From assembly GCF_001936595.1 (NCBI RefSeq), contig NZ_MLBG01000002.1, positions 62,001 to 126,000 on the forward strand: 64,000 bases of DNA. The letters are read 5' to 3'. This stretch comes from Desulfovibrio sp. DV. Its GTDB lineage: Bacteria; Desulfobacterota; Desulfovibrionia; Desulfovibrionales; Desulfovibrionaceae. The notes under the pieces were generated by a model, which was given only the letters and a program-made list of their open reading frames with translations, ran no database searches and was not told the DNA's origin. Numbering within the stretch: the stretch's first letter is position 1; each line of letters begins with the position of its first letter. Below are positions 31,402 through 37,041 of the stretch, piece by piece. Made by a program: the position numbers and the translations under genes.

Positions 31402-31744
31402 GTCGCCGTCTCGGCCGGACGCAACCGGTCACGAAGTGGCCAACGGGCGTGTCTGCCGGGAGCACTCTGCCGGCCGGCGCAGGCGCGTATTTTTATTTCC
31501 CCCATTTTCTTCCGTAAATTCAATCCGATTGCCCTTGTCCAGCCAAAGGGGCTGTCAATTGGCAATTTTAATTTAGTTTCCCGTATGTTAAGAATCCGTA
31601 TCGGCGGATGTCAAGACCTGGAAAGAGACGTTCCGACACTGCTTTCCTCACGAAACCATTGGTGGCAGCAGACATCGGCCGACCCGGTCCTGGTGTCACT
31701 CTTTTTGCCGTCCCGGCCCGCAACGCCCAAGGAGACCGTCTGCC
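31402..31744. other. Intergenic region upstream of the HdrD/HdrA genes
   Basis: No convincing gene lies here. The part around 31490-31590 is clearly AT-richer than its surroundings. It holds an 11-base palindrome AATTGGCAATT (31557-31567) and a weak promoter-like pair TTGGCA (31559-31564) and TATGTT (31584-31589) with a long 19-base spacer. It probably contains the promoter for the downstream pair; the AAGGAG ribosome-binding site sits just before 31745. Confidence 0.4.
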
Positions 31745-33073
31745 ATGGAGCCTTTGGAACTCGCCGTCGCCTCGCCGGAGCCTAGAGACCGGCTGCAGGC
31801 CCTCGACGTCCGGTCGTGTCTCGGCTGCGGGGCCTGCGCCAGCGGCTGTCCCATTCCCGGCACGCCCGGCATGGAGGGCTTTGACCCCCGGGTGGCGGTG
31901 CGGCTTATAGCCATGGGCCGCGAGGCGGAAGTGGCGGCCTCGCCGTTTCCCTGGGTCTGCACCAGCTGCGGCCGGTGTTCCCATGTCTGTCCCATGGGCA
32001 TCGACCTCACGGCTGTTTTCAGCCTGCTGCGCGGGCTGGTTCCCCGGTCCAAGGTCCCGGGGACGCTTGAGAAGGGCGTGGCCTCGGTGCTGGAGACCGG
32101 CAACACCCTGGCGATCCCCCTGGAAGACTTCCTCGATACCTTAAGCGACATCGGCGGCGAATTGGCCGAAGAGGAATGTCCCGGCTTTTACGTGCCCGTG
32201 GACAGCCCCGGAGCCGATCTGCTCGTGTTTCTCAATTCCAAGGAAGTGTTCGGCGATTTCGATGACCTCAAATGGTGGTGGCGCATCTTTTACAATGCCC
32301 GGGAGCGCTGGACCGTGCCGTCGCGTAACTGGGAGGCCGAGGACTGGGGACTTTTCACCGGCAATCCCGACGTCTCCCTGGTGCTGGCCCGGCGCAAGCT
32401 CGATCTCATGCGCAGCCTCGGGGCGGCCAGGCTGCTCATCCCCGACTGCGGCGGCGGTTCCTACGGCTGCCGCATGGGCCTGAAAACCTGCGCCCTGGAA
32501 GACCCTTCGCGCCAGGTCGATTCCCTGTATTTCTACGACTATCTGCTGGGACTGATCGATTCGGGCCGCATCCGTCTCGATCCGGCCCGCAATGCCGGGC
32601 GCACCTACGTCTGGCACGACGCCTGCAAACACGGCCGCGAACTGGAACGCCATTTCGGCAAAGGCTATTACGACGAGCCGCGCGCCATCCTCACGGCCTG
32701 CGTCGGACCGGACAATGTCGTGGCCATGGCTCCCGACCGGGCCAACAACTACTGCTGCGGGGCCGGCGGCGGCAACTGGCCCATGCCCTTTGAAAAGGAA
32801 TCGGCTGCCCACGGCCGGTTCAAAGTGGCCCAGCTTGAAGCCTGCCGGGCCGATGTGGTGGTGGTCGGCTGCGCCAACTGCCGCGACCAGCTGCAAAAAC
32901 GCCTGCCCCGGTTCTTTCCCGGCCGCTGTAACTACGAGGTCAAATACCTCTGGCAGCTCGTGGCCGAAACCATGATCGCCACTCCCTGGACCCCGGCCGA
33001 AATTGCCGCGGCCAAGGAACGCAGCCGGTTGCAAAACCAGCATTTTGAAGCCGAACTGGACGGAGGCTTTTGA
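31745..33073 (+). CDS. HdrD-like Fe-S protein (heterodisulfide reductase HdrB/HdrC-type)
   Basis: A 442-residue protein. Two 4Fe-4S motifs lie at the N-terminus (Cys 25, 28, 31, 35 and Cys 72, 75, 78, 82), like HdrC. A C-terminal CCG domain like HdrB follows: Cys 294 (HDACKHGRE), the pair Cys 337/338 (CCGAGGGN) and CANC at 376-379. A more degenerate first half (PDCGGGSYGC) lies near 234-242. The HdrD family passes electrons between ferredoxin-type clusters and disulfide or quinone-linked partners; DsrK and TmcB are relatives. Substrate unknown. The next flavoprotein gene starts within its stop codon, so the two probably form a complex. Confidence 0.8.
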   Translation: MEPLELAVASPEPRDRLQALDVRSCLGCGACASGCPIPGTPGMEGFDPRVAVRLIAMGREAEVAASPFPWVCTSCGRCSHVCPMGIDLTAVFSLLRGLVPRSKVPGTLEKGVASVLETGNTLAIPLEDFLDTLSDIGGELAEEECPGFYVPVDSPGADLLVFLNSKEVFGDFDDLKWWWRIFYNARERWTVPSRNWEAEDWGLFTGNPDVSLVLARRKLDLMRSLGAARLLIPDCGGGSYGCRMGLKTCALEDPSRQVDSLYFYDYLLGLIDSGRIRLDPARNAGRTYVWHDACKHGRELERHFGKGYYDEPRAILTACVGPDNVVAMAPDRANNYCCGAGGGNWPMPFEKESAAHGRFKVAQLEACRADVVVVGCANCRDQLQKRLPRFFPGRCNYEVKYLWQLVAETMIATPWTPAEIAAAKERSRLQNQHFEAELDGGF

Positions 33074-35133
33074 TGGACGCCAGCCAGCCTCTCCCCATCC
33101 TTGTGGCCGGCGGCGGCATGGCCGGCCTGCGGGCGGCCCTTGATCTGGCCGCGGCCGGCGGCAGCGTCGTTCTTGTTGAGGCCGGCACACGCCTGGGCGG
33201 CAGCCTGTCCCATGTCGCCACCCTGGCCCAGACCGGCCGGCCCATCCGGGATGAGCTCGACGCCCTGGTCGCAGACGTGCTGGAGAATCCGGGCATCACG
33301 GTCCGGCTGGGCCAGCGCCTGGAGTCCTTTGCCGGCCAGCCAGGGGAATTTCGCGCCGTGCTTGGCCGGCCAGGGGAGCAGGGCAGGGAGGAGGTCGCGG
33401 CCTCGTGCCTCATCCTGGCCATGGGCAGTGTTCCGTTTCATCCCGGCGGGCTCGATTTTCTGGGCCATGGCCTTATACCCGACGTGGTCACGAGCCTTGA
33501 CGTGGAAGCCATGGCGGCTGGGGCAGGCGGCATCGTGCGTCCCTCCGACGGGGGGAGACCGCTGTCGGTTGCCTTCATCCAGTGCGTGGGGTCGCGAATG
33601 CTTGCGCCGGTCGAACGTCCGGTCTGCTGTGCGGCCTGCTGCGCCGTGAGCGTGCGCCAGGCCCTGGCCATGCCCCAGGCCCGGCGCACCATTTGCGCCA
33701 TTGATCTGCGCACCCATGTGCCCGGCACCCAGGAGGCGCTCAATCAGGCCGAATCCGAGGGGCTGGCCGTGCGCTACGTCCGACCCCACACCCTGGAATC
33801 GGGTCCGGACGGTCGCGGGGTCAGCTTCCGTTTTGTCGATACGCAGGGCCTGGAATGCCGGGAGACCGTCGATCTGGTCGTCCTGGCTGTTGGCGTCGGG
33901 CTTTCCGCCGCAACTCGGGCCATGCTTGAGGCCTCGGGAGTGGCCACGGGGCGGCATGGCTTTGTGGCGACGCAACCGTTTGCTCCGGTGGCCACCAGCC
34001 GGCCCGGCGTGTTTGCGGCCGGCACGCTGCGCGGCCCGGCCGAGGCCTCCCTGGCTGTTGTCCAGGGATCGGCCGCCGCCCGGGAAGCCCTGGCTGCGGC
34101 TGGCCCCAAGACGGGGCAGGCCGGGGTGAAAACTGCCTTGGTTGTTGGCGGCGGAACAGCCGGTCTGGCCTGCGCCCTGAGTCTGGCCCGGTGCGGCCTG
34201 CCCGTGGCCCTGGTCGAGGCCACCGACCGCCTGGGCGGCAATCCGCGCAAGCATCCGACGGTCTGGAAGGGCCAGGAAACCCGGCAGGCCGTTGCCGCCA
34301 TGGCCCAGGCAGCCCTGGATCACGCAAGCATCACGGTGTTGACCGGGACGCGGCTGGTTGGCCTGTCCGGCCAACCGGGCCTTTGGACCGGGAGCCTCGA
34401 CACGCCGCAAGGCCGTTGCGACCTGGCCTTTGGCGCGGCCGTATTGGCTCTGGGCGGCAACGAAGCCAGGCCCGACGAGTATCTTCTCGGACGCGATCCC
34501 CGGGTCATGACCCAGCTTGAATTCGAGAACTGGCGGCGCTCCCATCCTGCGCCCGAAGACGCGCCGCAGTCCGTGGTTTTCATCCAGTGCGTCGGGTCGC
34601 GGCAACGCCACGGCTACACCGCCTGCGCCCGGGTGTGCTGCTCCCAGGCCCTGTGCGCCGCCGTGGACGTCAAGAAAAGCCGCCCCGACGCCCAGGTGGC
34701 TGTTTTCTACCGCGACATCACCGCCTACGGCGAGGCCGAGGACATCTACACCGAGGCCAGACGCCTGGGCGTGCTCTTTTTCCGCTATGATCCCCTTTGT
34801 CCTCCTCGGGTTGAGCGCTTGGGCACTGATCTGGCGGTGACCGGCGAGGACAGCCTCCTTGGGCGAGCGGTGCGGCTTCGTCCGGACCGGGTTGTCCTGG
34901 CTGTGCCGCTTGTGCCCACCGGCGTGGCTGAAATGGCGGCCCTGTTTGCCCTGCCGACCGATGGACTGGGATTTCTGTCGCCGGTCCATCCGGTGCTGTA
35001 TCCGGTCGATCTGCCCCGGCCCGGCCTGTTTGCCGCCGGCCTGTGTCTTGGTCCCAAGCCCTTGGACGAGTCCGTGGCCGAAGCCCAGGCTGCAGCCATG
35101 CGGGCGGCGGTGTTTCTGGCCGGACGCACCTGA
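33073..35133 (+). CDS. HdrA-like FAD-dependent oxidoreductase with two fused HdrA modules
   Basis: About 686 residues made of two similar halves. Each begins with a Rossmann FAD motif (GGGMAGLRAALDLAAAG near residue 13; GGGTAGLACALSLARCG near 360), carries an HdrA motif FIQCVGSR followed by a Cys cluster (CCAACC in the first half, CARVCC in the second), and ends with PGVFAAGTLRGP or PGLFAAGLCLGP. HdrA is the flavin subunit of heterodisulfide reductase and can bifurcate electrons. The ATG at 33073 overlaps the HdrD-like stop (TGATG) behind a GGAGG; a TTG at 33070 is less likely. No MvhD-like domain is present. Confidence 0.8.
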   Translation: MDASQPLPILVAGGGMAGLRAALDLAAAGGSVVLVEAGTRLGGSLSHVATLAQTGRPIRDELDALVADVLENPGITVRLGQRLESFAGQPGEFRAVLGRPGEQGREEVAASCLILAMGSVPFHPGGLDFLGHGLIPDVVTSLDVEAMAAGAGGIVRPSDGGRPLSVAFIQCVGSRMLAPVERPVCCAACCAVSVRQALAMPQARRTICAIDLRTHVPGTQEALNQAESEGLAVRYVRPHTLESGPDGRGVSFRFVDTQGLECRETVDLVVLAVGVGLSAATRAMLEASGVATGRHGFVATQPFAPVATSRPGVFAAGTLRGPAEASLAVVQGSAAAREALAAAGPKTGQAGVKTALVVGGGTAGLACALSLARCGLPVALVEATDRLGGNPRKHPTVWKGQETRQAVAAMAQAALDHASITVLTGTRLVGLSGQPGLWTGSLDTPQGRCDLAFGAAVLALGGNEARPDEYLLGRDPRVMTQLEFENWRRSHPAPEDAPQSVVFIQCVGSRQRHGYTACARVCCSQALCAAVDVKKSRPDAQVAVFYRDITAYGEAEDIYTEARRLGVLFFRYDPLCPPRVERLGTDLAVTGEDSLLGRAVRLRPDRVVLAVPLVPTGVAEMAALFALPTDGLGFLSPVHPVLYPVDLPRPGLFAAGLCLGPKPLDESVAEAQAAAMRAAVFLAGRT

Positions 35134-35215: not shown

Positions 35216-37041
35216 ATGAATCGCCCCAAGACTTTTGCCAAGGCCATTGTCCTTGGCATCGACGGACTCGATCCGGTGCTGTGCCGCCGGCTCATGGCCG
35301 CCGGCCGGCTGCCCCATCTGGCCCGGCTGGCCGCAACCGGCCGGTTCGCCGCCCTGGCCACGGCCAACCCGGCCCAGAGCCCGGTGGCCTGGACCTGCCT
35401 GGCCACCGGAGCCAACCCCGGCCAGCACGGCATTTTTGATTTTATCGTGCGCGCTCCGGGAACCTATCTGCCCCGATTGTCGCTCACCCGCCCCGGTCCG
35501 GGCGGCCAGCCCCAGCCGGCCTATACCTGCGAAACCTTTTTTGAAGTCGTTGCCAAGGCCGGACTGCCGGTGACCGCCGTCCGCTGGCCGGTCACCTATC
35601 CGCCGGCCTTTGCCGGGGTGACGACCCTGGCCGGCCTTGGCGCGCCCGACGTCAAGGGACGCCTGGGCAATTACGTGCACTATGCCGAGGAGGCCGGGGC
35701 TGCCGGGGGGGGCGCGGCAAGTTCGTGCCGGTGCGCTTGGCCGACGGTCGGGCCGTGGTGACCGTGGAAGGCCCCCTGGCTGTGGTGGCCGGCCAGAAGA
35801 CGCCGGCCGTCGTGCCCTTGGAATTATTCGTGGACGAGGGCCGGCTGGCCTATGCTGTGTGCGGCCAGTCCGGCAGCCTTGAACCGGGAAGCTGGTCGCC
35901 GTATCTGACGCTCGATTTCGACGCCGGGGAGGGCCGCCGGGTGCGCGGGCTCACCCGGCTGTGGCTGGGAAGGCTCAGGCCGCTTGAACTCTACCTCGGC
36001 CCGGTCCAGGTCGATCCCGGCGCGCCCAACCTGCCCATTGCCGCGCCGGCCGGGTATGCGGCCGAACTGGCTGCCGCCCTGGGCGGGCCGTTTTCCACGC
36101 TCGGGATGCCCGAGGAAACCAAGGGGCTCACCGATGGGGTCATGACCGATGAGGCCTTTTTGGCCATGTGCGAGGATGTGACGCGTGAGCGCGAGGCCAT
36201 GCTGGATTTTGAACTGGGCCGGTTCCGGGAAGGGCTGTTGTCTGTGGTTTTCGACACCTCCGACCGCATCCAGCACTGTTTCTGGCGGCTGGCCGATCCC
36301 GGCCACCCGCTCTATGACCCGGTCGAGGCCGCCCGCCTGGGGCCGGTTATCGACGACCACATGGTCCGCATGGACGCGGTGGTCGGCCGGACCATGGCCG
36401 CAGCCGGCGACGATACAGCCCTTTTTGTCTGCTCGGACCATGGTTTTTGTTCCTACACCCGGTCCTTGAATCTCAATGCCTGGCTGGTCAGCGAAGGCTA
36501 CATGAAGCTCTCACCCCACGATCCGGCTGACAGCGGCGAACTCTTTCGCCATGTGGACTGGACAGGCACCCGGGCCTTTGCCCTGGGCTTTGGTTCGATC
36601 TGCCTCAATATCGCCGGCCGGGACCGGCAGGGCGTGGTGCCGCCGGAGAGGGCCGACGCCCTGGCCGGGGAGATCGCCAGCCGCCTGGAAGCGCTCAGCG
36701 ATGGCGGGAACTCCCCGGTGGCCGCCGTCCATCGCAAGGCCGGCCTCTACCATGGGCCCCTGGCCGGGCAGGCTCCGGAGTTGGTCGTCGGCTGCCGCCC
36801 GCCCTACCGCGTGGCCTGGACATCGGCCATTGGCGGCACAGGGGGCGAGATTTTTACGGACAATCGCCAGAAATGGTCGGGCGATCACTGCGTGGACGCC
36901 TCGTTTGTGCCGGGTTCGTTGTTTGCAAACCTGCCCCTGGCCGCATCCGACGGGGTGGCCCAGACCCGGCTGGCGGCTACTGTCTGCCGCTCCCTTGGCC
37001 TGACGCCGGCGGCGCATATGGATGACGACTTGCTTGGGTAA
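35216..37041 (+). CDS. Type I phosphodiesterase/nucleotide pyrophosphatase-like protein (frameshifted)
   Basis: An alkaline-phosphatase-superfamily hydrolase of about 608 residues if the frame is repaired. The first part (from 35216) has the metal-site start VLGIDGLDP and SPVAWTCLATGANPGQHGIFDFI, where the nucleophile Thr is expected. The second part has DTSDRIQHCFWRL and SDHGFCSYTRSLNLNAWL. The two lie in different frames; the switch falls in a run of eight Gs (35705-35712), and nine or six Gs would rejoin them. Substrate unknown; relatives act on nucleotides or phosphonates. No signal peptide. Error, mutation or phase variation are all possible. Confidence 0.78.
35705..35712 (+). repeat. 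G8 homopolymer at the frame break
   Basis: Eight consecutive Gs inside the phosphodiesterase coding region, at the exact point where the reading frame changes. Such tracts are prone to slippage during replication and to miscounting in sequencing. Confidence 0.9.

Follow-up and report, generated by a model that had tools for sequence, protein, structure and literature searches.

A two-module HdrA-like flavoprotein without ferredoxin domains, paired with an HdrD-like protein in part of the genus Solidesulfovibrio

Here we describe a gene pair in a 64,000-nucleotide stretch of DNA (the window) from Desulfovibrio sp. DV, part of a draft genome of 219 contigs (G000). The pair, at positions 31745-35133, encodes an HdrD-like protein of 442 amino acids (aa) and an HdrA-like flavoprotein of 686 aa with two thioredoxin-reductase-like (TrxR-like) modules, each with a predicted flavin adenine dinucleotide (FAD) site. 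The flavoprotein is stripped of the ferredoxin domains usual in type II HdrA, the double thioredoxin-reductase form of HdrA. Judged by sequence, the flavoprotein of the pair is derived from type II HdrA and is not a Qmo variant. The features of the locus are as follows.

31729..31747, + strand: Shine-Dalgarno-like AAGGAG with the ATG of the HdrD-like gene (pattern match; AAGGAG ten bases 5′ of the ATG)
31745..33073, + strand: HdrD-like gene, 442 aa (open reading frame with ATG at 31745 and stop ending at 33073; Pfam, NCBIfam and orthologue rows)
31808..32002, + strand: HdrC-like 4Fe-4S dicluster domain, residues 22-86, with Cys25, 28, 31, 35 and Cys72, 75, 78, 82 (Pfam Fer4_8)
32606..32893, + strand: HdrB-like CCG domain, residues 288-383, with Cys294, 337, 338, 376, 379; presumed non-cubane 4Fe-4S site (Pfam CCG)
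33073..35133, + strand: HdrA-like flavoprotein gene (stripped type II), 686 aa (open reading frame, sequence, orthologue starts, AlphaFold2)
33088..34110, + strand: module 1, residues 6-346, TrxR-like, related to the N-terminal module of type II HdrA (structure match, tree)
33109..33126, + strand: FAD motif GGGMAG of module 1 (sequence)
33583..33642, + strand: cluster site of module 1, Cys171, 185, 189, 190 and an extra Cys186 (aligned to the four HdrA cluster cysteines)
33655..33657, + strand: Arg195 at the HdrA Lys409 position (Arg in 7/7 orthologues)
34123..35130, + strand: module 2, residues 351-686, TrxR-like, related to the C-terminal module of type II HdrA (identity, structure, tree)
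34147..34164, + strand: FAD motif GGGTAG of module 2 (sequence; Gly359, 361, 364 invariant in 33 rows)
34588..34641, + strand: cluster site of module 2, Cys506, 518, 522, 523 (invariant in 33 rows)
34654..34656, + strand: Cys528 at the HdrA Lys409 position (Cys in 3/7, Gln in 4/7 orthologues)

The AAGGAG-plus-start pattern matches three times in the window, against 0.36 matches expected by chance. The stop codon of the HdrD-like gene and the ATG of the flavoprotein gene overlap by one base (TGATG). The open reading frame listed for the flavoprotein begins at a TTG at 33070. We prefer ATG 33073, which gives 686 aa, because a GGAGG lies six bases 5′ of it, because of the TGATG overlap, and because five complete orthologues have Met at the same start; in those genomes the HdrD and HdrA genes overlap or lie about one base apart.

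The HdrD-like protein combines two cubane 4Fe-4S sites with the cysteines of a CCG cluster, the make-up expected of an HdrD or CCG disulfide reductase. All eight cubane cysteines, and the five of the CCG domain, are unchanged in 32/32 rows of an alignment made of the window, its own genome copy and 30 orthologues (rows with at least 330 aligned residues). Pfam did not recognise a second CCG half in this protein. NCBIfam scores for HmcF, TmcB and DsrK (142, 116 and 99 bits) lie far below the cut-offs of 750, 735 and 400. At E <= 1e-40, 70 of the 199 genomes sampled from the family have relatives, which split into a close group, with about 51-60% identity outside the pair, and a distant one at around 30%. 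The distant group (for example G016:C2:64948-66087) recurs in the family, and many of its members have a single in-frame TGA and are perhaps selenocysteine HdrDs. In an HdrD tree, the HdrDs of the pair form one clade whose sister group the tree does not settle. Among the matches listed, the large Hdr clusters L084, L085, L089, L090, L093 and L096 have an HdrA of about 1140-1210 aa and an HdrD orthologue as the last gene, with HdrC- or HdrB-like genes in most and a gene of about 300 aa read as a universal stress protein.

In the flavoprotein, each half carries a GxGxxG motif, an FIQCVGSR motif and a C-X3-CC cluster; Pfam finds FAD/Pyr_redox matches in both halves and no Fer4 domain in the chain. 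Across 33 aligned rows, Cys171, 185 and 190 of module 1 are invariant and Cys189 is nearly so. An AlphaFold2 model built from a 33-row alignment (predicted local distance difference test (pLDDT) 88.3, predicted template modelling score 0.90) supersedes an earlier, mediocre model from seven sequences (pLDDT 69). The top Foldseek matches of the flavoprotein are 6tjr, the best, and HdrA chains. By VIA-align, residues 6-346 superimpose on HdrA 5odh (Z 29.4, root mean square deviation (rmsd) 2.2, 340 residues) and on the HdrA-like 6tjr (Z 28.6, rmsd 1.6, 329 residues), and residues 351-686, among the matches listed, on thioredoxin reductases and their relatives (Z about 22-24, rmsd about 4-8 Å). 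In the model, both halves have the TrxR-like FAD-module fold. An earlier note on this DNA had read the locus as an HdrD-like gene beside a two-module HdrA-like gene, with HdrC-like 4Fe-4S sites and an HdrB-like CCG domain in the partner. The reading frames, the Pfam matches and the conserved cysteines bear this out, and structure prediction of the flavoprotein agrees with it for both halves.

Two TrxR/FAD modules in one chain, as sequence and model predict here, are a defining mark of type II HdrA. The NCBIfam HdrA2 profile (NF040770) scores 283 bits against a cut-off of 1100, a cut-off also missed by the full-domain HdrA of locus L035 (847 bits) and by the Flx-type HdrA of the same genome as the window (809 bits). 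The ferredoxin/4Fe-4S domains of the usual type II HdrA are absent, namely the middle N-terminal-type 4Fe-4S domain, the inserted ferredoxin domain and the C-terminal ferredoxin domain. The Cx2Cx2Cx3C ferredoxin motif occurs in none of the seven orthologues (one of which ends at a contig end) and three or four times in each of the ten two-module relatives compared. The corresponding motifs of the two modules lie 335 residues apart in 7/7 orthologues, 487-521 residues apart in 20 two-module relatives with an extra middle stretch, and 314-318 apart in three HdrAs of family f5; the large HdrAs of G072, G149, G164 and G186, where the motif was found in the first module only, stand outside the two-module counts. 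Because the ferredoxin motifs are absent in 7/7 orthologues, we file the protein as a variant derived from type II HdrA and not as an ordinary member. The number of ferredoxin/4Fe-4S domains differs between HdrA classes and so is not strictly defining (PMC12054007).

The surroundings of the flavin differ as well. HdrA residue numbers follow the papers and counting along 5odc, and the Flx-type HdrA of the same genome provided the motifs that fixed the alignment columns. Lys409 and Glu356 at the flavin have been proposed to tell bifurcating from non-bifurcating proteins (PMC12054007). Of this mark, the 14 modules of the seven orthologues keep Glu356 (14/14) and have lost Lys409 (0/14), which is replaced by Arg in 7/7 copies of module 1 and by Cys (three) or Gln (four) in module 2. 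The same position is Lys in 23/23 other module-1 rows of two-module proteins and in 17/23 other module-2 rows, the remainder being Glu (3), Arg (2) and Thr (1). The four HdrA cluster cysteines align in 13/14 modules. Cys197, the ligand that crosses between subunits in HdrA (PMC9012536), lies in a region that has no counterpart in either half.

Where the two modules come from was addressed with a tree of 79 modules, each cut as a contiguous core around its cluster motif (one row below 200 aa, from L046, was excluded). Across the seven orthologues each module is a clade of its own, with support of 100/100 for both. Module 1 groups with the N-terminal modules of a six-member group that holds the proteins of loci L034, L035 and L080 (93/87), and module 2 with the C-terminal modules of L034 (G069), L035 (G016) and L080 (G071) at 97/97. 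The tree thus traces the two modules to the two separate lines of type II HdrA. Module 2 is 42% identical over 335 aa to the C-terminal module of L035. Module 1 is 34% identical to module 2 over 336 aa and 33% identical to its L035 counterpart over 204 aa, by identity alone no closer to the latter than to module 2. A tandem duplication is rejected, because the tree places the halves in separate clades and forcing the 14 rows into one clade costs 72 log-likelihood units (p 8.5e-5, approximately unbiased (AU) test). On this evidence the halves are two separate old modules, so that the earlier note's picture of an HdrA unit present twice, each time with its GxGxxG, FIQCVGSR and Cys cluster, stands for the modules and falls for the repeat. 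A Qmo variant, which the same note had named as the alternative that would overturn it, is set apart by AU tests that reject a Qmo placement for module 1 (p 0.021) and for module 2 (p 0.001). The single module of 6tjr sits outside both module clades, on a long branch.

The three nearest relatives, L034, L035 and L080, appear to be selenocysteine HdrAs beside [NiFe] hydrogenase. In L035 the gene order is HdrD, HdrA, hydrogenase small subunit and hydrogenase large subunit (Pfam), the large subunit having VhuA as its best NCBIfam match, below the cut-off. L080 has the same genes by similarity to L035, among the matches listed, and L034 has HdrA with genes read as hydrogenase, no close-group HdrD orthologue being listed for that genome. 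All three HdrAs have an inserted ferredoxin motif, a middle 4Fe-4S motif and two C-terminal ferredoxin motifs (from Pfam in the case of L035). Two-module HdrAs are also found in most other loci fetched from the class. An in-frame TGA stands at the Cys197 position, by the count along 5odc, in the type II HdrAs of L035 (upstream of 5290), L034, L080, L079 and L077; it probably encodes selenocysteine at the cross-subunit cluster ligand.

Whole-chain matches to the flavoprotein were found in 7 of 14 Solidesulfovibrio genomes (6 of the 11 of good quality). The earlier note had suggested looking for the pair across the Desulfovibrionaceae. The same seven genomes were the only ones recovered among 348 of the class, with the stripped form in no other genus there, and among 395 genomes sampled from the phylum the window's own was the one match at E <= 1e-85; these scans scored three (class) or two (phylum) candidates per genome, so that distant stripped forms could escape them. 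At E <= 1e-60 a further 97 genomes of the class match, most rows covering module 2 only, inside longer open frames, and three (G241, G234, G233) spanning both modules from residue 100 or 109. The flavoprotein is present at 62-72% identity in Solidesulfovibrio aerotolerans and two metagenome-assembled genomes of S. magneticus. HdrD matches at E <= 1e-100 occur in 8/14 genomes of the genus, six with the pair and two (G058, G181) near an HdrA of 1162 aa; in the seventh pair genome, G160, the contig ends within the flavoprotein gene. Within the genus, the HdrD orthologue is thus found in this pair, found near a large HdrA, or not found.

All seven orthologues (one ending at a contig end) have open frames without internal stops. 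The ratio of nonsynonymous to synonymous substitution rates (dN/dS), computed pairwise for six orthologues with a purpose-written counting script, is below 1 in all 15 pairs, at 0.03-0.13 for HdrD, 0.18-0.53 for module 1 and 0.17-0.38 for module 2. Both genes are kept, HdrD most strictly. The pair recurs, with similar neighbours, in six further genomes of the genus and, because of this recurrence and of the purifying selection, is not a chance association.

Upstream of the pair lie a carbamoyl-phosphate synthase large chain, a glutamine-amidotransferase protein (read as PurF) and a 130-aa open reading frame without a family match; downstream lie a phosphodiesterase, MarR, MFS and an aldo/keto reductase. 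The Pfam and NCBIfam scan of the window neighbours found no MvhD, hydrogenase or membrane Hdr subunit adjoining the pair, as the earlier note had observed. A simple insertion of the pair was considered and rejected, no clean empty site being found: purF and the phosphodiesterase gene lie about 87 kb (G080) and 459 kb (G121) apart on one contig, and in the other pair-less genomes they are on different contigs or purF is unmatched. The neighbours were also set aside as a hint to function, since the phosphodiesterase and MarR are still together in three pair-less genomes (G080, G121, G152) and are not specific to the pair.

Some further observations concern these neighbours. The type I phosphodiesterase gene (window 35216-37041) is broken into two frames; compared with G133 and G097, the frame shifts in a stretch of G residues around 35704-35712, which could be a draft sequencing error or real. 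Within its coding region, on the opposite strand, ARAGORN calls a tRNA-Gln (35317-35414, - strand) that is likely a false positive. In G025, an open reading frame 5′ of HdrD (L031 11628-13001) reads like a group II intron reverse transcriptase.

We favour, with some reserve, the reading that the pair forms a non-bifurcating soluble flavo-iron-sulfur thiol/disulfide oxidoreductase, a complex of HdrD with a reduced type II HdrA. The entry point for electrons in HdrA is the C-terminal ferredoxin domain. From there two routes lead out: the cluster of the TrxR domain passes electrons on to HdrBC, and the N-terminal cluster together with the inserted ferredoxin domain passes them on to ferredoxin (PMC9012536). 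Judged by domain content, the present protein retains just the route to HdrBC, and HdrD supplies the HdrC and HdrB parts. We read the complex as non-bifurcating because the FAD module and TrxR-domain cluster are retained and HdrD supplies those parts, while the ferredoxin domains and Lys409 are gone. HdrD would contribute two cubane 4Fe-4S sites and one CCG cluster site, and the flavoprotein only two flavin/4Fe-4S modules. The two proteins would bind each other, and electrons would pass among FAD, the module 4Fe-4S cluster, the two HdrD cubanes and the CCG cluster, without bifurcation to ferredoxin. At the CCG cluster a disulfide would be reduced or a dithiol oxidised, most likely on DsrC or another small thiol like it. 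The choice of DsrC draws on the part that CCG proteins generally play in sulfate reducers (PMC10553843) and on a single DsrC match in the genome. With the usual entry from MvhD to the C-terminal ferredoxin domain gone, another partner would have to meet the flavin or a module cluster directly. For an F420-using HdrA fused to MvhD, it has been suggested that a soluble donor reacts directly with the flavin (PMC12054007).

Several points weigh against this reading. Lys409 is missing in 61 of 401 archaeal core sequences (15.2%) and is therefore not an absolute mark (PMC12054007), module 2 of the three hydrogenase-adjoining relatives already has Glu at this position, and the Arg of module 1 retains the positive charge of the lysine. 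The missing domains could be supplied by another protein. DsrC is a guess by analogy, from the likeness of this HdrD to HmcF, TmcB and DsrK, all of which score below their cut-offs. In G133 (L028 6429-8492), module 1 has Gly at one cluster Cys and an extra Cys nearby, so that its cluster may be changed or lost. The branches leading to the module clades are long (1.25 and 0.93), and for this reason the exact sister of each is less secure than its support value implies, and less secure than the module split itself. The HdrD tree was dropped as a guide to origin, as it does not give the nearest HdrD group.

The bifurcation that the earlier note had entertained is weakened by the loss of the ferredoxin domains and the replacement of Lys409 in both modules of 7/7 orthologues. 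We consider it unlikely that one flavin still bifurcates, with a free or unlinked ferredoxin-type protein in place of the lost domains: two FAD-type modules and two cluster sites are retained, Glu356 persists in 14/14 modules alongside the charged Arg of module 1, and in anaerobic methanotrophic archaea (ANME) tandem HdrAs are believed each to make up for what the other lacks (PMC9012536), but the ferredoxin motif is found in 0/7 orthologues, Lys409 is replaced in 14/14 modules and no ferredoxin-type partner was seen among the scanned neighbours. Orthologues of the HdrD occur beside [NiFe] hydrogenase, beside Flx-like genes, in large Hdr clusters or, in the stretch fetched, without an Hdr partner (among the matches listed), as would suit an ordinary electron shuttle module that joins an existing complex, Flx-Hdr or another, in place of HdrABC. 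We hold this to be quite unlikely, as the C-terminal ferredoxin domain that accepts electrons from MvhD-type partners has been lost.

A soluble Qmo-like or sHdr-like unit, with the modules as equivalents of QmoA and QmoB (or of sHdrA) and HdrD as the equivalent of QmoC or HdrCB, would account for the sequence resemblance of each half to QmoA and QmoB, for the match to 6tjr by half 2 in sequence and by module 1 in fold, and for the absence of ferredoxin domains, shared with 6tjr, which also lacks Lys409 (Asn). It is nevertheless highly unlikely: for Qmo, common descent is largely refuted by the AU tests (p 0.021 and 0.001), QmoB lacks the cluster cysteines that both modules keep, and the genome has Qmo genes of its own (QmoC passes its cut-off; QmoA and QmoB are named by gene order). 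Least credible of all is that the pair is what remains of a type II HdrA complex now in decay and without a function, an idea that the patchy occurrence (7/14 genomes of the genus), the faster evolution of module 1 and the lost cluster Cys in G133 would fit; against it stand open frames in 7/7, dN/dS below 1 in 15/15 pairs, 0.03-0.13 for HdrD, and the recurrent neighbourhood.

Beyond the non-bifurcating reading lies a broader proposal that we put forward as speculation. Some Solidesulfovibrio may have converted an H2-linked, selenocysteine-dependent bifurcating HdrA-HdrD into a minimal two-flavin, ferredoxin-free enzyme that links a soluble donor directly, in either direction of electron flow, to a protein disulfide, for example that of DsrC. 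The result would be an energy-uncoupled bypass of the bifurcating and membrane routes, with the second flavin module as a new entry port. Such a protein amounts to a natural deletion experiment on HdrA, in which the flavin modules and the HdrD leg stay; lost are the legs to ferredoxin and hydrogenase, the ligand that crosses between subunits, and the lysine at the flavin. If the disulfide were still reduced and ferredoxin were not, the pair would reveal which parts of HdrA enable bifurcation, and it would add a possible soluble electron route to the disulfide pool of sulfate reducers.

The earlier note had called the pair an unusual, distinct soluble HdrA-HdrD unit. This is supported, the pair having so far been seen only in part of one genus, but double HdrA and the pairing of HdrA with HdrD or CCG proteins have precedents or partial precedents and are not new in themselves. 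Type II HdrA is described in archaea (PMC12054007, PMC9012536), HdrA clusters of ANME include HdrD-like genes (PMC9012536), in Desulfobacterium autotrophicum hdrD2 comes after hdrA4, with no MvhD, as part of a larger locus (PMC2702500), and HotSeep-1 has an HdrA with a haem-binding CCG protein (PMC10553843). The open literature searched, in its accessible parts and without subscription papers, yielded no type II HdrA that lacks ferredoxin domains and is paired with HdrD.

Among known systems, QmoA and QmoB are likewise a pair of HdrA-like flavoproteins, but they are encoded on separate genes, whereas the modules here are fused and fall outside the Qmo clade. The sHdrA of Hyphomicrobium denitrificans (6tjr), a member of HdrA class A0, resembles the modules here in having a TrxR core and cluster without ferredoxin domains or Lys409, and differs in having one module in place of two. 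HmcF, TmcB and DsrK share the HdrD-like architecture of the partner, whose gene, unlike theirs, adjoins no membrane Hdr partner and whose scores fall below their cut-offs. The HdrAs of family f5 (L105:4549-7017, L106:7084-9573, L107:2512-4983; 822-829 aa) also lack the middle 4Fe-4S domain; they retain the inserted and C-terminal ferredoxin motifs, and their modules group elsewhere. In L105 and L107 the HdrA is followed by an HdrD-like gene in two pieces. Type II HdrA, including HdrA3/A4 of ANME, has the middle 4Fe-4S domain, the inserted and C-terminal ferredoxin domains, Cys197 or selenocysteine, and Lys409, all of which the flavoprotein here lacks; it shares with the flavoprotein the same two distinct TrxR/FAD modules, in the same order, each with its own cluster. 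Hydrogenase subunits, an in-frame TGA and ferredoxin domains distinguish L034, L035 and L080 from our pair. All three nonetheless hold the nearest modules, and L035 and L080 have an orthologous HdrD as well, at 57 and 56% identity.

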